From assembly GCA_018971685.1 (NCBI GenBank), contig JAGXAG010000003.1:88366-121075 (forward strand): a stretch of DNA of 32,710 bases. Direction: 5' to 3'. The DNA comes from Patescibacteria group bacterium. GTDB lineage: Bacteria > Patescibacteriota > Minisyncoccia > Phycocordibacterales > PALSA-1337. Positions 23,930 through 32,710 of this stretch are shown one piece after another (position 1 is the first letter of the stretch; every line of letters begins with the position of its first letter). The position numbers were made by a program, and so were the translations under genes. The notes under the pieces are model-generated. The model was not told the origin of the DNA, searched no databases, and was given only the letters and a program-made list of their open reading frames with translations.

Positions 23930-24418
23930 CTACATTCCGAAGAAGTCCATCTCGCGGCGCAGCGAGGAAAGTTCCTCCGGCGTCGGGCGTTTGGCGGGGC
24001 CGGCCGGCACCATCTTGCGCTTCTTGGCGACATGCACCTGGATAGCCTTGAGGATCTTGGGAAGGATGTCTTCCCAGTTGAAGAGGCTGTTCACCTTCAG
24101 GCACTGCAGGCTGTAGCCGTCAGTGTCAGAGGCGGACTTCAGGCCGTGGATCTTCGCCAAATCCTTGTAGAAGGGATGGATCTTTCCCTTGATGCCCCAG
24201 CCGGGCTTGTTGGCGTTCTTGACGACGGTCCGCAGGTCCAGACCATGATCGTCAATTTCGGGGAAACGAGTCCGGGTGTTGATCCGGATGCAGTCTGGGT
24301 TCGGACAGAACTCGACCTGGTAGATGAACCCACGTCGCGGAAGTTTCTTGTTTTCGGGCTTCTGCGGAGTGCTGCCAGGCTTAACCGTTTGTCCGTTACT
24401 TATCGTTCGGTTTTTCAT
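23930..24418 (-). CDS. Unknown protein, about 162 aa
   Basis: From ATG 24418: a basic, Pro/Lys-rich N-terminus, a domain with VEFCPNPDCIRINTRTRFPE (a Cys-x4-Cys pair), a central GLDLRTVVKNANKPGWGIKG segment, and a C-terminal helical part that ends in a basic/Pro linker (KKRKMVPAGPAKRPTPEELS). No family recognised. The open frame extends to an ATG at 24538, but that lies upstream of a textbook promoter (24498-24526), so the shorter start is preferred; the mRNA leader would be about 70 nt. With its own promoter and strong terminator it is a stand-alone transcription unit at the edge of the defence island. The Cys pair might bind metal. Confidence 0.6.
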   Translation of the reverse strand: MKNRTISNGQTVKPGSTPQKPENKKLPRRGFIYQVEFCPNPDCIRINTRTRFPEIDDHGLDLRTVVKNANKPGWGIKGKIHPFYKDLAKIHGLKSASDTDGYSLQCLKVNSLFNWEDILPKILKAIQVHVAKKRKMVPAGPAKRPTPEELSSLRREMDFFGM

Positions 24419-24497
24419 AACTATGGTTCTTGTGTGCTGGTCTCCGTGAGAAGCCAGGTTGTTAAGCCACACAAAAGCTTTTTTCAAAACTACGCAT

Positions 24498-24526
24498 AGT
24501 TTAGCACGTATAATATAAGCTGTCAA
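24498..24526 (-). promoter_or_regulatory. Consensus-like promoter of the 162-aa gene
   Basis: Minus strand: TTGACA (24521-24526), 17-bp spacer, TAAACT (24498-24503). Best -35/spacer match in the window. Confidence 0.65.
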
Positions 24527-24670
24527 GCTCACTCTCAAAAAGCCCTATTTTTAAGGCCTAAGTTAGTAATTAGGGCCAAACATGGCTTTTGTTAACTATA
24601 TTTGGCCGGATCTGCTGTTATCCCATTTTGTCCACTAATTACACTGTACTGTGCAAAAAAGGACATTTTA

Positions 24671-24679
24671 TGCTACAAT
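24671..24679 (+). promoter_or_regulatory. Extended -10 promoter of the defence operon
   Basis: TGCTACAAT, with predicted start around 24686, inside the dyad at 24678-24719. The -35 region is poor. A second -10-like TATAAT (24725-24730) lies only 2 nt before the abiEi ATG and is badly placed for it. Confidence 0.5.
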
Positions 24680-24719
24680 ATCTCCGAAATATGTTAAAAT
24701 TAACATGTTCCAGAGATAT
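24678..24719. promoter_or_regulatory. 42-nt dyad, candidate AbiEi operator
   Basis: Centred between 24698 and 24699, 17 of the 20 mirrored pairs match. Outer arms ATATCTC (24678-24684) and GAGATAT (24713-24719) and inner arms ATGTTAA (24691-24697) and TTAACAT (24700-24706) are perfect. It overlaps the likely transcription start and precedes abiEi by 13 nt. AbiEi antitoxins are known to repress their operon by binding inverted repeats upstream. Confidence 0.6.
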
Positions 24720-24732
24720 ATCCATATAATAT

Positions 24733-25356
24733 ATGCAATACCTAGAGTTTAGAGAACAATTGAAGAATTACCCAGTTTTTAGCCTTAATGACATACGGAA
24801 GCTTGAGGCAGATTTTGACTTGCGCCGATTAAATGAGTGGCAGAAGAAGAATTACATAAAGAAGGTTCGCAAGAGCTTTTACATGTTCGCGGATCTACAA
24901 GTTAATGAGCAGATTTTATACACGATCGCCAATCGCATCTATGAGCCGTCGTACATTTCACTTCAGATGGTACTTTCACTTTACGGACTTATCCCTGAAG
25001 CTGTGTACGGGATAACTTCAGTCACTTCACAGAACACAAAGACCCTGAAGACTCCGATCGGAGATTTTAGCTACAGGCATATTCGCCCGGAGCTTATGTT
25101 CGGGTATGAATTACGCGAATATGAAGGTCACAGCCATCAAGTGGCAGAAATCGAAAAGGCAGTTTTGGATTATCTCTATCTCAACGCCAAGTTAGAATCC
25201 CGGGAAGACTTCGAAGGATTGCGTTTCAATGCTGCTGAATTCAAGAGTAAGGTAAATATGGAAAGGTTTAACAAGTACCTCGAAGTATTCAGCAATAACG
25301 CGCTTAGAAAGAGGGTCAAGAAGTTTTTAACATATATCGAACATGCTCAGTCTTAA
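24733..25356 (+). CDS. AbiEi-like antitoxin/transcriptional regulator
   Basis: 207 aa. N-terminal winged-helix-like part (FSLNDIRKLEADFDLRRLNE, followed by a RKSFYMFAD wing), then the AbiEi domain: YISLQMVLSLYGLIPEAVYG ITSVTSQNTK-type core, IGDFSYRHIRPELMFGYELR, and AEIEKAVLDYLYLN. In type IV AbiE systems this protein counters the AbiEii nucleotidyltransferase without touching it and represses the operon. Its stop overlaps abiEii by 14 nt. A long dyad in front of the gene is a fitting binding site. First gene of the defence operon. Confidence 0.8.
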   Translation: MQYLEFREQLKNYPVFSLNDIRKLEADFDLRRLNEWQKKNYIKKVRKSFYMFADLQVNEQILYTIANRIYEPSYISLQMVLSLYGLIPEAVYGITSVTSQNTKTLKTPIGDFSYRHIRPELMFGYELREYEGHSHQVAEIEKAVLDYLYLNAKLESREDFEGLRFNAAEFKSKVNMERFNKYLEVFSNNALRKRVKKFLTYIEHAQS

Positions 25357-26119
25357 GAACATCGAACAATACTATCCGGATAATGAGAAGCCTTTCAAGA
25401 GAAATATCTTGAGAGAATATTTGCAATACAAGATTCTCGAGATTATTTTCAACTCAAAGTATGCCAAGGACCTCATCTTTCTTGGCGGCACAGCGCTCAG
25501 AATCATCTATGGCAACACCAGATTCTCCGAGGATCTTGATTTTGATAATTTTGGTATTACCAAGGAACAATTTGCCGATCTGGCAAATGAGATTAAGAAG
25601 GGCTTGGAGCTACAAGGATACGAAGTAGAAATAAAGAATGTGTTTAAGGGTGCATACCGGTCCTACATCAGGATGCCGGGCGTGCTTTTTGATAACGAAA
25701 TGTCGCCCCTTCGTGAGGAAAAGATTTTGATTCAGATCGATACAATGCCGCATGTATTCGATTACACAAAAGATGCAAAGATTCTGAACAAGTTTGATGT
25801 CTTCACACAAATTTTTGTTACCCCTATTGATATTCTACTTTCCCAGAAGATCTTTGCCGCACTCAATCGCTCCCGGGCCAAGGGACGCGACTTTTTCGAT
25901 ATTGTTTTCCTCATGCCAAAGACCAAGCCGAATTACGAATACCTTGAAAAGAAGCTTGGTATAAAGAATGGCAAGGAGTTGAAGGATAGCCTGCTTTCGA
26001 AGACTGCCGACCTAAACTTTGAGGAACTGGCCAGGGATATTGAACCGTTCCTGATCAATTCAGATGAGGGTAAGAAGGTGAGATTGTTTAGAGAATATAT
26101 TCAATCAATAGAAATTTAA
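25343..26119 (+). CDS. AbiEii-type nucleotidyltransferase toxin
   Basis: 258 aa. The nucleotidyltransferase core is clear: FLGGTALR (Gly48-Gly49-Thr50) followed by FSEDLDFD with Asp64 and Asp66, the metal-binding acids of the AbiEii/AbiGii family; a later acidic strand EEKILIQIDTM and the ITPIDILLSQKIFAALNRSR-like segment (VTPIDILLSQKI, RSRAKGRDFFDI) supplies the conserved Lys and the KxRDxxD motif. Family members such as MenT add nucleotides to tRNA acceptor ends and block growth, giving abortive infection. The pair with AbiEi makes a complete toxin-antitoxin module. Mod starts 4 nt downstream of its stop. Confidence 0.88.
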   Translation: MLSLKNIEQYYPDNEKPFKRNILREYLQYKILEIIFNSKYAKDLIFLGGTALRIIYGNTRFSEDLDFDNFGITKEQFADLANEIKKGLELQGYEVEIKNVFKGAYRSYIRMPGVLFDNEMSPLREEKILIQIDTMPHVFDYTKDAKILNKFDVFTQIFVTPIDILLSQKIFAALNRSRAKGRDFFDIVFLMPKTKPNYEYLEKKLGIKNGKELKDSLLSKTADLNFEELARDIEPFLINSDEGKKVRLFREYIQSIEI

Positions 26120-26123
26120 AACT

Positions 26124-27836
26124 ATGAATCCTGTTGTGAACCAAAAACAAAAGAGCGTCGAAAAAGATTACTCAACTCTAAGCAAAGAGGATCTTGTTAA
26201 GATCGTCGAGAAACTAGAGTCTCGAAAGAAATATGGCCTTATCTGGGACGAAGAAAAGGTAAAGGAGCAATTCGAGAAAGATGCTCAAAATGCCCTGCCG
26301 GTGTTGAAGGAAATTAAGGGTAAGGAAATTGTTGATAAGGACCAGTCAAAGCCAATCAATATCCTCATCGAGGGTGATAACTATCACGCTCTCTCTGTTT
26401 TGAATTTTACGCATCAGGGTAAGATTGATGTGATCTACATTGATCCGCCGTATAACACAGGTTCGACTGATTGGAAATACAACAACGATTATGTCGATAG
26501 TAACGATACGTATCGTCATAGCAAATGGCTCTCAATGATGAGCAAGCGTTTGAGACTTGCTCGAAGATTACTAACTGAAGACGGGGTGCTCATTTGTGCT
26601 ATCGATGAAAATGAACTGAGTCGGCTAGGAATGTTGCTCGAAGAAGTTTTTGAAGGATATGAGATACACTGTGTCACGATCGTTCATAACCCCAGGGGTA
26701 TTCAAGGCACTAATTTTTCGTACACGAATGAATATGCATATTTCTGCTTCCCAGCCGGTAAGAAGGTTATCGGTCCAAGAAAGATAAAGCAGGAAGATAT
26801 CGATTGGAGAAATCTTAGAGATAACGGCGGCGAATCTTTGCGAACTGATGCAAGAAATTGTTTTTATCCGATTATTGTTAAAGATGGCAAAGTCGTGGGA
26901 TTTGGTGATGTTGTGCCAAACGAGACGCACCCAAAGAAGCAGACTATTAAAAAGGATGACGAGTATTTTATTTACCCGATTGATCCGAAGGGTATTGAGA
27001 GGAAGTGGCGCTACGCCCGACAAAGCGTGGATGAGATCAAGAATCTTCTTCGTGCGAAGCCATCTAAAGGAGGATATGAAATTGAGCTAGGTAAAGACTT
27101 TGGAACTGTAAGAACGGTCTGGCAAGATAGTCGATATGACTCAAATGAGTACGGCACAAAATTAGTACATACCTTGGTACCTGATGCGCATTTTGATTTT
27201 CCGAAGTCCGTGCATAACACATATGATTGCATCGCGCCTATTCTGTACAACAAGAAGGACGCGACTATCCTTGATTTCTTTGCGGGATCGGGCACTACCG
27301 GTCATGCGTTGATGCTGATGAATAAAGAAGATGATGGGCAGAGAAAATTTATCCTTTGTACGAATAACGAGAATGGTATTGCAGAAGACGTGTGCTATCC
27401 GAGAATAAAGGCAGTTATAAAAGGAAATAAAGAATATCCTGATCTGACTGGTATAGCATCAAGTCTAAAATATTTCAAAACAAAATTTATCAAAAATACT
27501 TCCAATCCGGATGATGCTAAGAGGAAGATTACCGAGGAATGCACTGAGATGCTTTGCTTACGCGAGAATGTGTTTGATGAGGTAAAAAGCAACGACGAAT
27601 ATCGAATATTCCAGCACGGTAATAAAATTCTTGCTGCGTACTACGCTCTTGAGCGGTCCGGTCTAAAGGATCTTAAGAAGGACCTGGATAAGTTCGATGG
27701 TGACAAAGTCCTCTACTGCTTCACGCTTGATCCGCTCGGGCTCGATAAGAAGGACTTCAAAGGTTGGGATAATGTGACACTCGAGCCGATTCCGCAGAAA
27801 ATATTGGATGTCTACAAACAAATTTATGAGTATTGA
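26124..27836 (+). CDS. mod: Type III restriction-modification methyltransferase (Mod)
   Basis: 570 aa. Order of motifs is beta-class N6-adenine: catalytic DPPYNTG first (Asp107-Tyr110), then a variable target-recognition region (about 170-330), then the AdoMet motif DFFAGSGTTG (384-393). The N-terminal GDNYHALSVLNFTHQGKIDV and ENELSRLGMLLEEVFEG are type III Mod/site-specific methylase signatures. It recognises the target sequence for both methylation and, with Res, cleavage. Somewhat shorter than typical Mod (600-680 aa). It overlaps the Res start by 11 nt. No Shine-Dalgarno; likely coupled to abiEii. Confidence 0.9.
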   Translation: MNPVVNQKQKSVEKDYSTLSKEDLVKIVEKLESRKKYGLIWDEEKVKEQFEKDAQNALPVLKEIKGKEIVDKDQSKPINILIEGDNYHALSVLNFTHQGKIDVIYIDPPYNTGSTDWKYNNDYVDSNDTYRHSKWLSMMSKRLRLARRLLTEDGVLICAIDENELSRLGMLLEEVFEGYEIHCVTIVHNPRGIQGTNFSYTNEYAYFCFPAGKKVIGPRKIKQEDIDWRNLRDNGGESLRTDARNCFYPIIVKDGKVVGFGDVVPNETHPKKQTIKKDDEYFIYPIDPKGIERKWRYARQSVDEIKNLLRAKPSKGGYEIELGKDFGTVRTVWQDSRYDSNEYGTKLVHTLVPDAHFDFPKSVHNTYDCIAPILYNKKDATILDFFAGSGTTGHALMLMNKEDDGQRKFILCTNNENGIAEDVCYPRIKAVIKGNKEYPDLTGIASSLKYFKTKFIKNTSNPDDAKRKITEECTEMLCLRENVFDEVKSNDEYRIFQHGNKILAAYYALERSGLKDLKKDLDKFDGDKVLYCFTLDPLGLDKKDFKGWDNVTLEPIPQKILDVYKQIYEY

Positions 27837-30171
27837 TTTAAAACCATATCAGGAAAGAGCAGTCGAACAGCTGATCGAAAATGCGATCAAGCTTCTTTCG
27901 TATGATGGTCCGGGCGAGCTCTGCGTCTTCCAGGCACCTACCGGCTCCGGCAAGACGGTGATGATGGCGAAATTCATCGAAGGGATTATCAAGGAACTTC
28001 CGCAAGAAGATCTCTGCTTCATTTGGATGAGTATTGGCAAGGGCGACTTGCATCTCCAAAGCAAGCATTCTCTTGAGAAAATATTCGGCGGCTTTCCGCG
28101 CGTCGTTTCTGTCGAGGAAGAATTTAGTGGCGGCCGAGAGAGGATCGTACAAAATGAAGTTGTTGTAGCAAACTGGGAAAAACTCCGCAGCAAGGACCGC
28201 ACAAGTGGTGATTGGAAGAATATCGTCATGAAAGATGGAGAGAAGCTCAATTTCCGCGATGTTCTGGAAAAGACCCGTGAACAGCGAAAAATCATTCTCA
28301 TCATCGATGAAAGCCATGTGAGTGCGGAAACCGCCCGGGCAAATGAACTTCGCGATCTTATTGGAGCAGATGTGACCTTTGAGATGAGCGCTACGCCACG
28401 ACGTGTTCAGGAAGATCTTGGCTTCATGCAGAAAGTCCTCAAAGGCAAGGGCGAGGCCGGATATGTTTCTGTCGATCCGAAAGATGTGATCGACGAAGGC
28501 ATGATCAAGAAAGAACTTATTATCAATGAAGATATCGCAAAGATCGCCGCTGATGAGGACGACTCACAGACGGCAGTACTCGAAGCCGCATATCGCAAGC
28601 GTTTAGAGCTCAAGAAAGCATTCGAGAAAGAAGGATCGGATGTAAATCCGCTAGTTCTTATTCAAATACCTACTGCTGAAGCTGGTGAGCAGAAAATTGC
28701 TGCAGTAAAGAAATTTCTGTTCGATAAAGATATTACCGAGAGAAGCGGAAAATCAGGCAACGGCAAACTTGCTGTCTGGCTTGCCGAAGAAAAATCAGAG
28801 CTCATTGATTGGATTTCCGAGCCAGACAATGAAATAGAATTTTTGATATTCAAACAAGCTATCGATACCGGCTGGGACTGTCCGCGTGCTCACATCTTGG
28901 TGAAATTCCGTGAGACACACAGCATTCCGTTCGAGATTCAGACCGTCGGCCGCATCTTGCGTATGCCGGAACAGATGCATTACCAAAACGAAATGCTTAA
29001 TCGTGGATATATCTACACAAACCTCAAGTCAATCGAGGTTAAAAAGGAAGAATATAATCCGAATATCATCAAGCATCTCCGGGCTGAGCGTATTCCGACT
29101 TACAAGCCGATCAAGCTTCAGTCGTACTACAAAGCCCGTGCTGATTACGGCGATGTGACATCAAGTTTTAATCCGGTGTTCGCCGCTGTCGCTGATGAAT
29201 ATTTTGGCATCAAGAAAGCTGGCATAGCCGAAAGCGTAAAAACTATCGAAAAAGCAGGTATTAACCTCGATATTAAAAAATATCAGCAGGAATTGATCGC
29301 CGACACCTACATCGATTCAAAAGCATTTGATCAGATGGAAGGCAATCTATCAGCAGATGCGTTTGCGAAACTCTCTGTTGCAGCCGGTGAACTTCAGCTT
29401 TTCTTTGAACAGACTATCAAGAATAACCTTGGTTCGTTCAAGAACGTGAAGCGTTCGGTCCCGGCTGTTAAGACCGCTATTTATCTCTGGTTCAGAAAAG
29501 CTGTCGGCTCGAAAGAATGGGATGACGAAATGTTCATGACTCAAAAGATTTTCCAACACGACAAAAATCGCGGCATTTTTGAGCACATTCTGGCTACGGC
29601 TATTGATCGCTATAAGTTAGTCAAAGAGCAAGAGGTTCGGGATCGCATCGAGGAAAGCGAGCAATGGTACGATTTCGAGCTCAAGCCGGAACAGTTTTAC
29701 AACGAATTTTCAGATGAGCGCGTAGAGGCCAAAAATTACGCGTACAAGCCTTGTTACCTGAATGTTGACCGTTCACAGCCTGAACGGGCCTTCGAGGCCT
29801 TTCTGGGCAAGAATTCGGCCAAAATCGATTGGTGGTGGAAGAACGGCGAGAGCAAATTGGACTATTTCGGCCTTAAATACGAATATCAGGCCGCTATTTA
29901 CACTTTCTATCCGGATTACCTGGTCCGACTCAAAGACGGCCGTCTCGGCATTTTCGAGGTGAAGGAATCAAATGATCGGGACGGATTGAGCTACACCAAA
30001 GCAAAGGCCGAAACACTTCAAAAGTACATCGCGCAGCAGAAGAACAAAAAACTCTTTGGTGGCATTGTAATTGAGAAAAATAAAGCTTGGTTGATCAACG
30101 ATAACTCAAAATACAACTGGGAGAAGTGCGAGAAGGATGATTGGGGTGAATGGGAGAATTTGAATCTTTAA
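27826..30171 (+). CDS. res: Type III restriction enzyme Res subunit (helicase-nuclease)
   Basis: 781 aa. SF2 helicase: Q-like LKPYQERAV, Walker A APTGSGKT (Lys43), Walker B DESH (161-164), motif III MSATPRR, motif VI QTVGRILRMPE. The C-terminal endonuclease domain contains FYPDYLVRLKDGRLGIFEVK with the PD-x-EVK catalytic residues (Glu711, Lys713). It translocates after Mod binds two sites and cuts DNA. ATG 27826 overlaps the mod stop; an upstream ATG (27808) is possible but adds only six residues inside mod. It lacks obvious damage, so the system looks intact. Confidence 0.92.
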   Translation: MSIDLKPYQERAVEQLIENAIKLLSYDGPGELCVFQAPTGSGKTVMMAKFIEGIIKELPQEDLCFIWMSIGKGDLHLQSKHSLEKIFGGFPRVVSVEEEFSGGRERIVQNEVVVANWEKLRSKDRTSGDWKNIVMKDGEKLNFRDVLEKTREQRKIILIIDESHVSAETARANELRDLIGADVTFEMSATPRRVQEDLGFMQKVLKGKGEAGYVSVDPKDVIDEGMIKKELIINEDIAKIAADEDDSQTAVLEAAYRKRLELKKAFEKEGSDVNPLVLIQIPTAEAGEQKIAAVKKFLFDKDITERSGKSGNGKLAVWLAEEKSELIDWISEPDNEIEFLIFKQAIDTGWDCPRAHILVKFRETHSIPFEIQTVGRILRMPEQMHYQNEMLNRGYIYTNLKSIEVKKEEYNPNIIKHLRAERIPTYKPIKLQSYYKARADYGDVTSSFNPVFAAVADEYFGIKKAGIAESVKTIEKAGINLDIKKYQQELIADTYIDSKAFDQMEGNLSADAFAKLSVAAGELQLFFEQTIKNNLGSFKNVKRSVPAVKTAIYLWFRKAVGSKEWDDEMFMTQKIFQHDKNRGIFEHILATAIDRYKLVKEQEVRDRIEESEQWYDFELKPEQFYNEFSDERVEAKNYAYKPCYLNVDRSQPERAFEAFLGKNSAKIDWWWKNGESKLDYFGLKYEYQAAIYTFYPDYLVRLKDGRLGIFEVKESNDRDGLSYTKAKAETLQKYIAQQKNKKLFGGIVIEKNKAWLINDNSKYNWEKCEKDDWGEWENLNL

Positions 30172-30182
30172 GACTAAACAAA

Positions 30183-31355
30183 ATGACTGTCAATCCTACT
30201 GATTTCAGAGAGGTAATCTATCCAGATGGACAAAAACTTTTCTTTAGTAAAAAGCATTCTTTTCATGATCATTTTGCACATAAGAGGAAAACAACAAAAT
30301 TTCCATATCATAAAAATATCCTACTTTTTCTCAAAGAGAATCCTGCAATAAATATATACTTTACATTGGATGAGGAGGCCAAGCCATTCAAAAAAATCGA
30401 ACAAGGGTTCCTTATAAATATGGTTTCTTACAGTGAATTCTGTAAGACAATTGGAACTAAAACTGGCGGCAGATCAAAAGCTTTTCTGGGACAAAATTTA
30501 AGTCTGAAAGACATTAATTTCACCGATAACGATAAAGACGAATTCATACGAGCTAATGCTTCTGAAAAGAATATTGTGGGTGCGGTCCAAAGCCTTCATC
30601 CGGATGTTCAAAAGAAGATTATGGATTCTTTAAGTTCGCTTGAGACCATAAATACATACACACCAAAAAGAGAAATAAATCAGAATGAATTCGTATCGGC
30701 GTTTACCAGGTTTCTCACTGATTCTTCTGTTCAGGCTGCATTTTATAATCAGCTTCCACATATCCAGATTGAGATACTCAAATCGCACATCAAATTTTTG
30801 AAGGAAAATCTAGATAAAAATGAAACCTTCATCCAAAATTGGATTGATGAGGATGATGGCAAATTCAGAAAACAGAGATGTTTAATTTTTGGTCTAGAAT
30901 ACGTTGACCCCAAGAGGGAGGGGCAGGTATCAGGCAAAAAGTTTGATATTTTAGCTGAACAAGATTTAGAGCACCACGTAATTTTTGAATTGAAATCACC
31001 AAAAGATGAAATCTTCAAGATCACGGAAGAATCCACAGTTGCAGGTGGTGTTACAACAGAATATAACATCTCTCCCCAGCTATCCCGAGCAATTCCAGAG
31101 GTTCTTGGTTATAAGGGACTTTATGAAAAAGCAAGTAACGAGGAACTGCAAAAGATTGGGGTCAATGTAAGAAAGCCTATAAGAAAATGTGTGATCGTTT
31201 TAGGTACAAAGAAGGATGATCCCGTATGGAAAGATAATTTTGAGCGCGTATCAAATTGTTTGAATGGAATTGAGTTACTCACCTACAATCACCTTATTGA
31301 ACGTCTGGAAAATACCGTTAAAAATCTTGAAGAAAATACATCAGCTATTACCTAA
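30183..31355 (+). CDS. Shedu-like (SduA, DUF4263) anti-phage nuclease
   Basis: 390 aa (ATG 30150 adds 11 residues inside res). The C-terminal part matches the DUF4263 pattern: RCLIFGLEYVDPKREGQVSG KKFDIL with Asp255, then HHVIFELKSP with Glu269 and Lys271 (PD-(D/E)xK core), a long helix ending SPQLSRAIPEVLGYKGLYEK (Gln-containing helix of the fold), and RKCVIVLGTKKDD, ELLTYNHLIERLENTV. Shedu proteins are nucleases that nick or cut phage DNA as single-gene defence. The N-terminal 170 residues form a separate, unrecognised sensor-like domain (DEEAKPFKKIEQGFLINMVS). Codon use and operon spacing (11 nt from res) fit the same island. Confidence 0.78.
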   Translation: MTVNPTDFREVIYPDGQKLFFSKKHSFHDHFAHKRKTTKFPYHKNILLFLKENPAINIYFTLDEEAKPFKKIEQGFLINMVSYSEFCKTIGTKTGGRSKAFLGQNLSLKDINFTDNDKDEFIRANASEKNIVGAVQSLHPDVQKKIMDSLSSLETINTYTPKREINQNEFVSAFTRFLTDSSVQAAFYNQLPHIQIEILKSHIKFLKENLDKNETFIQNWIDEDDGKFRKQRCLIFGLEYVDPKREGQVSGKKFDILAEQDLEHHVIFELKSPKDEIFKITEESTVAGGVTTEYNISPQLSRAIPEVLGYKGLYEKASNEELQKIGVNVRKPIRKCVIVLGTKKDDPVWKDNFERVSNCLNGIELLTYNHLIERLENTVKNLEENTSAIT

Positions 31356-31365
31356 CACAAAAGCT

Positions 31366-32346
31366 ATGGAGAATCTAAAATCTCAAGTATCGGATATAAA
31401 TACTAAAATACGCGACTTTGTTAATGACTCTACAATAAAGAAGACAAATATCTTTGCGAAAAAACATGATGGCGACTGGAATCAGTTTTGTGCGGCACTG
31501 GATACGATCGGTGATACATGTTTAGCCGTTGAAGGGTTCCAGAGGGACCAAAGTGATTTTGTAAAAAATCCCTATCTTACTACATACGGAATTTTACAAG
31601 CACTTTTCATACAACAAGATAGCGTAAATTACTTGAAAACTGCATTATTTGGCAAAGACAAAAAAATTGATTGGTCCAGTAATAAATATTCAGAGTTGGC
31701 AAAGATTAGACAACTCAGAAACGAGACGATCGGACACCCAGTAAAAACCGAAAAGAAAAGAGGTAAGTCAAAGTATATGGATGGCGAAGTATCCTCTTGT
31801 ATGATAGACCGGTCCTCTTTATCGAAAGAGGGTTTTAGTTACATGCTATGGATGAGCTCAGGGACCGAAACAAAGCACGTAAAGTTTTCCGATGTTCTAA
31901 ATGCACAAAATCAAAATCTCAGTGCGGAACTTGAAGCTATTCTGAAGGAATTACAAAAAGAGGAAAAGGAACACAAGGTAAAATTTAAAGGGGAAAAGCT
32001 TGCTGATATCTTGAATGCCAGATCATTATACGAAATCAATCTAATTTATGGGGTGCACTGGGATGACCACCTTGCTTGGCCAAGTTTTGATCATTACCAT
32101 GAACGATATAAGAAAATACGAGCAGGTCTTGAAAGTCGTTATGGTAAATTCGGAACAATTCTGAGAATCCCGGGCACTGAAGAAGTTGTAAAAAAGCTAG
32201 ACTACGTTTTTTCTAAGATTGAGGGTTTTAAAATTAGTCGAAAGTTTGATGATTACGAGTTTGAAGTTTATGTTGACGCTCTTGATGCTGGACTAAAAGA
32301 ACTCAAGACACACCTTGAAGAAATAGACAAAGAATTTGAAATATGA
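31366..32346 (+). CDS. Unrecognised protein with HEPN-like R-x5-H motif
   Basis: 326 aa from ATG 31366, 10 nt after the Shedu stop; an upstream ATG 31264 would overlap Shedu and is unlikely. N-terminal half is helical: NQFCAALDTIGDTCLAVEGF, then GILQALFIQQDSVNYLKTAL, and LAKIRQLRNETIGHP, in which Arg118-Asn119-x4-His124 is the R-N-x4-H signature of HEPN ribonucleases. The middle (WMSSGTETKHVKFSDVLNAQ) and a charged helix (LEAILKELQKEEKEHKVKFK) follow, then a C-terminal helical domain. HEPN proteins cut RNA in toxin-antitoxin and abortive-infection systems. The motif and defence context suggest a toxin or effector, but the family is not recognised and the nuclease role is inferred. It overlaps the next gene by 4 nt (ATGA). 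Confidence 0.6.
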   Translation: MENLKSQVSDINTKIRDFVNDSTIKKTNIFAKKHDGDWNQFCAALDTIGDTCLAVEGFQRDQSDFVKNPYLTTYGILQALFIQQDSVNYLKTALFGKDKKIDWSSNKYSELAKIRQLRNETIGHPVKTEKKRGKSKYMDGEVSSCMIDRSSLSKEGFSYMLWMSSGTETKHVKFSDVLNAQNQNLSAELEAILKELQKEEKEHKVKFKGEKLADILNARSLYEINLIYGVHWDDHLAWPSFDHYHERYKKIRAGLESRYGKFGTILRIPGTEEVVKKLDYVFSKIEGFKISRKFDDYEFEVYVDALDAGLKELKTHLEEIDKEFEI

Positions 32347-32560
32347 AAAGGGAACAAACTAGAACTAGGCACATTAACGAGAAGTATTTTTTCGATATCC
32401 CAGTTTTTCGTTGTGATTTTGATACCTGGGTTAAAGATCAAGAAGATAAGAGAAACAAGTTGGCTCAAAACCTTGCCGGGAAGGATAAGAAAGTTACAGA
32501 ACGCGAGGTTGATTTTGCAGAAAAATGGCTTCGTCCAAACTGGTCAGCATACTATTACAG
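32343..32560 (+). pseudogene. Last operon gene, truncated by an IS element
   Basis: ATG 32343 overlaps the previous stop by 4 nt. About 72 residues of genuine-looking sequence (FFDIPVFRCDFDTWVKDQED, later VTEREVDFAEKWLRPNWSAY) run to about 32560; the frame then enters the insertion-sequence end and stops at 32591 after a few foreign residues. It is thus the 5' part of a gene interrupted by the IS. No family recognised; coupling with the HEPN-like gene suggests a partner such as an antitoxin or second subunit. Confidence 0.6.
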
Positions 32561-32710
32561 TGTGTACTTCCCCCATTTCTTCAGACACTGACCTTGTGTT
32601 GGGAATTGTACGCCGCCGCGGCCTGAATCGCAAACTGGGCTGGTGCCATATCGAGCGACGAATGTATCCGGGCGTTGTTGTAGATCCAGATTGAGCGGTA
32701 GATCTCGGCC
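32561..32710 (-). mobile_element. IS3-family (IS150-like) insertion sequence, 3' end only
   Basis: The element appears to begin at 32561 or 32563: TGTACTTCCCCCATTTCT resembles the IS150-group terminal repeat (TGTACTG-CCCCA type). The transposase stop lies 18 nt inside. The other end, and any target-site duplication, are outside the window. Confidence 0.65.
32581..32710 (-). CDS. IS3/IS150 transposase OrfB, C-terminal part (5' end outside window)
   Basis: The minus strand reads AEIYRSIWIYNNARIHSSLD and on to MAPAQFAIQAAAAYNSQHKV before TGA at 32581-32583. The IYNN.R.H.SL...P pattern is the C-terminus of the rve integrase core of IS3-family OrfB. The catalytic DDE residues lie upstream beyond the window. 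GC-rich compared with the defence genes, consistent with a recent insertion. Confidence 0.8.
   Translation of the reverse strand, partial: AEIYRSIWIYNNARIHSSLDMAPAQFAIQAAAAYNSQHKVSV

Follow-up and report, generated by a model that had tools for sequence, protein, structure and literature searches.

The island described here occupies the distal part of a 32,710-nt stretch of DNA (the window), which takes in bases 88366-121075 at the right end of contig C14 in a host genome of 750 kb and 14 contigs. Seven genes, all on the + strand, run from 24733 to about 32562. They comprise abiEi (24733-25356), assigned to a type IV toxin-antitoxin system as its antitoxin and putative autorepressor (PADLOC AbiEi, 2e-64); abiEii (25343-26119), for a nucleotidyltransferase-type toxin (Pfam AbiEii, 7e-20; PADLOC AbiEii, 1e-95); mod (26124-27836), for a type III DNA methyltransferase (Pfam N6_N4_Mtase, 2e-24; PADLOC MTase_III, 1e-76); res (27826-30171), for the type III restriction subunit (Pfam ResIII, 2e-18; PADLOC REase_III, 5e-20); an SduA-like (Shedu) nuclease gene (30183-31355); a HEPN-like gene (31366-32346); and a small last gene (32343 to about 32562). 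In gene order the junctions are a 14-nt overlap, 4 nt, an 11-nt overlap, 11 nt, 10 nt and a 4-nt overlap. The initial annotation had listed the same co-directional genes and junctions, and all were reproduced, the sole variant being a possible res start at 27808 that would extend the mod/res overlap to 29 nt. No obvious Shine-Dalgarno sequence is present at any of the seven starts. At the left edge of the island lies an orphan gene of 202 aa on the - strand (23930-24538), without any family match.

Structure prediction identifies the first gene product as a genuine AbiEi, composed of an N-terminal wHTH and an AbiEi-type C-terminal domain. Its AlphaFold model (pLDDT 90) was matched by Foldseek to the S. 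agalactiae AbiEi (6y8q; E 9.6e-8, probability 1.00, 202 columns); a PDB sequence search with AbiEi gave no match, and the structural assignment thus came only from fold comparison. The AbiEii nucleotidyltransferase, above the Pfam cut-off, is encoded directly downstream in the 14-nt overlapping frame. The two proteins that follow show the features of type III membership, Mod carrying the DPPY and FxGxG motifs (as DPPYNTG and FFAGSGTTG) and Res those of an SF2 helicase with a C-terminal PD-(D/E)XK nuclease (PTGSGKT, DESH and PDYL...EVK). Across the relatives compared, abiEi-abiEii and mod-res are each near-invariant as a pair. The same genome holds a second, divergent type III mod-res pair on contig C3 (74614-76854; locus L086), with 35% identity in res.

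The rear half of the island differs from the front in composition and kinship. Description of the fifth gene as Shedu-like was borne out: the SduA_C match (3.6e-7) exceeds the Pfam gathering score, and the D-x13-E-x-K residues of the DUF4263 nuclease domain (D255, E269, K271) are invariant in four relatives. Related SduA proteins were found at 47% in genome G406 and at 53%, over a partial copy, in G179. The HEPN-like protein is assigned at the level of its motif, RNxxxGHP, which is invariant in four homologues; Pfam, the PDB sequence search and the fold search returned nothing significant for it. GC3 is 0.32-0.37 in the SduA-like, HEPN-like and small genes against 0.44-0.51 in abiE-mod-res, and the closest relatives of the rear genes sit in other genomes than those of the front genes. 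On the grounds of this lower GC3, and of a HEPN-like relative (70%, genome G171) that has an XRE gene and a serine recombinase as neighbours, the three rear genes appear to form a distinct cargo module of lower GC. At that G171 locus (L105, contig C3, 1376-4254) the HEPN-like gene overlaps the XRE regulator gene by 4 nt, and the two perhaps constitute a two-gene toxin-antitoxin unit. A Type I restriction operon in G434 (L228, contig C12, 1-7712) carries three genes between its hsdM and hsdS: one for SduA, spaced 3-4 nt from its neighbours, an unknown one and a small HEPN-like one. Together with the present island, this makes SduA within restriction operons a recurring theme; the literature likewise describes defence systems, such as PrrC, lodged within Type I operons (PMC12629846).

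The last gene, noted earlier as truncated, is indeed cut near its 3' end by an IS3-family element that starts at 32562/32563, and the contig ends 148 bp further on; the 3' end of the seven-gene run therefore lies outside the window. What is present of the element (32563-32710, - strand) is its right end, encoding the OrfB C-terminus (translation AEIYRSIWIYNNARIHSSLDMAPAQF..., family assigned by eye). The boundary was drawn from common contig ends, which in this assembly overlap by 149 bp, the same 149 bp being found at both ends of contig C7. The opposite IS end occurs on four other contig ends. The IS in the window is immediately preceded by GTG, and C12 alone among the four starts with this triplet (with four candidates, such a match has a chance of about 6%). 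If C12 is the continuation, the 3-bp duplication suggests that the small gene lost only about five codons (ALTDR-stop). Beyond the candidate join, C12 encodes a protein with a helix-turn-helix hint and then a serine recombinase with its 3' end at tRNA-Asn, and the island would thus lie within an integrative element. Joining C14 to C12 across the IS is tentative, because the other IS ends fail to pair by their flanking triplets. The serine recombinase gene at the C12 end (L229) is related to another large one at the start of C5 (L230), with its 3' end at tRNA-His, and copies of the IS3-family element adjoin both. A 17-bp repeat between C12 and C14:72633 was considered as an island boundary and rejected, having been traced to the remnant of another element upstream of core genes. 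The empty site was not located with marker genes of both flanks in 12 genomes of the same order.

Compact spacing as such is not unusual in the host genome: in a sample of about 113 kb, 34% of adjacent genes that run in the same direction are separated by 15 nt or less. The seven-gene run is unusual in its length, since the longest tight run elsewhere in that sample has four genes, and six consecutive tight junctions are expected with a probability of about 0.0015 at the genome's rate. The junction that connects the toxin-antitoxin pair to restriction deserves separate consideration. In the class, abiEii is present in 59 of 384 genomes, and stand-alone abiE without restriction cargo is common there; 14 of 15 such stand-alone loci have no co-directional gene within 40 nt after abiEii, which makes the 4-nt gap between abiEii and mod in the island notable.

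Control of the run would start from the region ahead of abiEi. An extended -10 (TG-C-TACAAT) with a weak -35 was placed at 24671-24679 (+) from the sequence and from homologue comparison, the stand-alone abiEi homologues having a TGCTA-type extended -10 or a TTGACA/TATAAT promoter at the same place. Overlapping the -10 is the putative AbiEi operator (24678-24719), a 20-2-20 inverted repeat with arms at 24678-24697 and 24700-24719, pairing at 17 of 20 positions around a 2-nt loop; the core is TGTTAAAATTAACA at 24692-24705. The dyad exceeds the 99th percentile of 1000 simulated regions, yet stays below their maximum. The core TGTTA-N4-TAACA, or a close variant of it, is shared by 5 of the 13 regions compared upstream of abiEi (the window among them), for an expectation of 0.0023 per region. 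The four other regions all precede stand-alone abiE pairs, so that the operator appears to belong to AbiE and to have been brought along with the pair. Autorepression is well supported by this sharing of the core with stand-alone relatives, together with the inverted repeat and the AbiEi fold, and there is strong indication from sequence and model that AbiEi represses its own promoter. The initial annotation had placed the only convincing promoter of the island before abiEi, over a long dyad. The dyad stands; a strict consensus scan did not detect the abiEi promoter, and its singling out therefore rests on the homologue comparison. That scan returned 13 promoter-like sites in the region compared to 18.2 in shuffles, fewer than expected. 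Candidate internal promoters, all of them weak matches on the + strand, precede res (27774-27802) and the HEPN-like gene (31260-31289 and 31352-31381).

Recurrence of the arrangement was examined with abiEii, SduA, res and HEPN protein queries in the 384 genomes of the class, and further in 380 genomes of the phylum (SduA), contigs of GTDB genomes (mod), viral contigs and plasmids. The complete abiE-mod-res-SduA-HEPN order had no second occurrence in any of these sets. Its front half did recur: a metagenome contig (JAUSIS010000003.1, locus L121) shows abiEi-abiEii-mod-res with abiEii 4 nt before mod, exactly as in the window. The expectation that the gene order would be found elsewhere thus holds for the front and fails, in the sets searched, for the whole. 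AbiE of L121 is of another subfamily (PADLOC PDLC02255/PDLC02324, as opposed to PDLC02241/PDLC02313 in the window), and no comparable dyad was found ahead of the L121 abiEi. A different toxin-antitoxin pair takes the same position on two related betaproteobacterial conjugative plasmids: mazE-mazF-mod-res on NC_014908.1 (94484-108316) is connected by overlaps of 4, 1 and 4 nt, and a similar run on NZ_CP027670.1 has mazE/mazF and mazF/mod overlaps of 4 and 1 nt. A toxin-antitoxin pair a few nt upstream of mod-res hence occurs in more than one lineage (the window, L121 and these plasmids).

How commonly mod is headed in this way was surveyed on 134 distinct mod loci, each having 250 nt or more of sequence upstream. 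A co-directional gene lies within 30 nt upstream of mod in 60 of them, and in approximately 17 of the 60 the first or second upstream gene encodes a small HTH protein of XRE or excisionase type (by reading, unscored). The position ahead of a type III mod appears, from these sequences, often to be a regulator slot. AbiE in that position is rare (one of the 134 loci besides the window, and none of 724 plasmid records); chimeric tblastn queries found no plasmid record with abiEii-mod adjacency, and mazF-mod adjacency was found, among plasmids, only on the two. The search of viral contigs gave no relatives of the SduA-like, HEPN-like or abiEii genes, and its 41 mod relatives have, by reading, no AbiE close upstream. 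In G210, abiEi follows a type III res at a distance of about 0.6 kb and abiEii is broken off before a transposase-like gene; this is loose clustering, different from the abiEii/mod join. With the window, L121 and the mazEF plasmids taken together, toxin-antitoxin pairs appear to have entered the regulator slot at least three times.

We consider it moderately probable that the island is a mosaic operon, in which AbiE heads a type III restriction-modification operon under AbiEi control and the SduA-HEPN-like module is appended downstream. The AbiE pair would bring its autorepressed promoter into the controller slot, AbiEi most likely replacing the small HTH regulator frequently encoded ahead of a type III mod. 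Repression of the front promoter through the 20-2-20 operator would set the basal levels of AbiEii, Mod and Res together, and those of SduA and the HEPN-like protein would be set by read-through from the same promoter. Derepression of toxin and restriction together would follow if AbiEi were lost or the island reached a naive host. The IS3-family element inserted later at the 3' end. The order and spacing of the genes, the conserved operator, the fold of AbiEi and the recurring toxin-antitoxin/mod/res join are seen in the sequences; that the genes are co-transcribed and that AbiEi acts as repressor in this organism, as well as the physiological logic, are what we infer from them. Against this reading stand the rarity of AbiE ahead of mod, the L121 abiEi without a comparable dyad and the weak internal promoter matches, although promoter-like sites in total are fewer than in shuffles. 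The earlier proposal that AbiEi sets the level of restriction is supported in part: the close packing of abiE against mod-res recurs with another AbiE subfamily and with MazEF, as would fit a toxin-antitoxin promoter driving restriction. AbiEi control of restriction can be inferred with good reason, that of the SduA-like and HEPN-like genes is suggested weakly, and the triggering of AbiEii on loss of the island, also proposed earlier, is a conjecture. Given that the same join is made with unrelated toxin-antitoxin pairs elsewhere, it may be a reused control device. We put forward, as a tentative extension, that unrelated families (two AbiE subfamilies and MazEF) were repeatedly recruited for type III restriction control, with the antitoxin acting as restriction controller, the toxin dose coupled to the restriction dose, and antitoxin loss or inactivation releasing both.

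Ordinary stacking in a defence island, where separate acquisitions abut by chance, have their own promoters within the preceding coding sequences and leave AbiEi in control of abiE only, is a rather unlikely yet substantive alternative. It accommodates the complete order without a second occurrence in the sets searched, the modules with relatives in different genomes and differing GC3, the tight spacing common in the genome and the weak internal promoter matches. Chance abutment is hard to reconcile, however, with the identical 4-nt abiEii/mod gap beside another AbiE subfamily in L121 and with the overlapping mazF/mod on the plasmids, and no other run sampled in the genome is as long. That AbiE serves mainly as a post-segregational growth inhibitor stabilising defence cargo on a mobile element, with restriction regulation incidental, is improbable: AbiE does stabilise plasmids in E. 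coli (PMC3985639), by the tentative IS join the island continues into a contig whose serine recombinase gene ends at tRNA-Asn, and a HEPN relative adjoins such a recombinase, but stand-alone abiE without restriction cargo is common in the class and addiction does not require the 4-nt coupling to mod.

The proposed mosaic operon would combine elements of several known systems. With the S. agalactiae AbiE type IV system it shares the overlapping gene pair, the wHTH AbiEi fold and an inverted repeat, here a putative operator, over the promoter (PMC3985639, PMC7319586). AbiEi of S. agalactiae binds two 23-bp inverted repeats, 3 bp apart, that cover -35, -10 and +1 (PMC3985639; PMC7319586); the putative operator here, 20-2-20 over the -10, resembles those 23-3-23 sites (PMC3985639). 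Known AbiE is bicistronic, whereas here it runs on, at 4 nt, into type III restriction and further genes. Adjacent mod and res, with their methyltransferase, helicase and nuclease motifs, conform to type III restriction-modification; the operon head, unlike in the usual mod-res, is a toxin-antitoxin pair. As in C-protein controlled restriction-modification, a DNA-binding protein, here predicted to be autoregulated, is encoded first in the operon, but the regulator is the antitoxin of a toxin and there is no C protein. A second defence function resides in a restriction operon, as it does where PrrC and other systems are embedded in Type I operons; here, however, the operon is of Type III, and the added system stands at its head and would supply its promoter.

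Reviews describe restriction controllers for Type II and for one Type I system (PMC12707154): in Mycoplasma gallisepticum, a C-family regulator at the head of the Type I hsd operon appears to repress the whole operon (PMC12707154). The control logic therefore has a precedent, and the antitoxin in that role is the new element. In the reviews on restriction control that we consulted, no dedicated controller of type III operons is mentioned, and a literature search with most subscription journals and preprints outside its scope turned up no type III operon described as headed by a toxin-antitoxin pair. Our verdict, as judged from sequence, is that the island probably represents such an operon with appended defence cargo, a variant not previously described in the literature searched. 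If restriction is indeed controlled by toxin-antitoxin repressors, a single switch would govern the dose of defence, the dose of toxin and the maintenance of the element. Further cases could be sought by a simple rule, a toxin-antitoxin pair within about 4 nt of mod. The position ahead of mod has other occupants as well: a protein of approximately 550 aa with a GSSxGxNAIGKST P-loop closely precedes many type III mod genes (L152, L154, L159, L164, L184, L252, L255, L257, L258, L262, L266 and L286).
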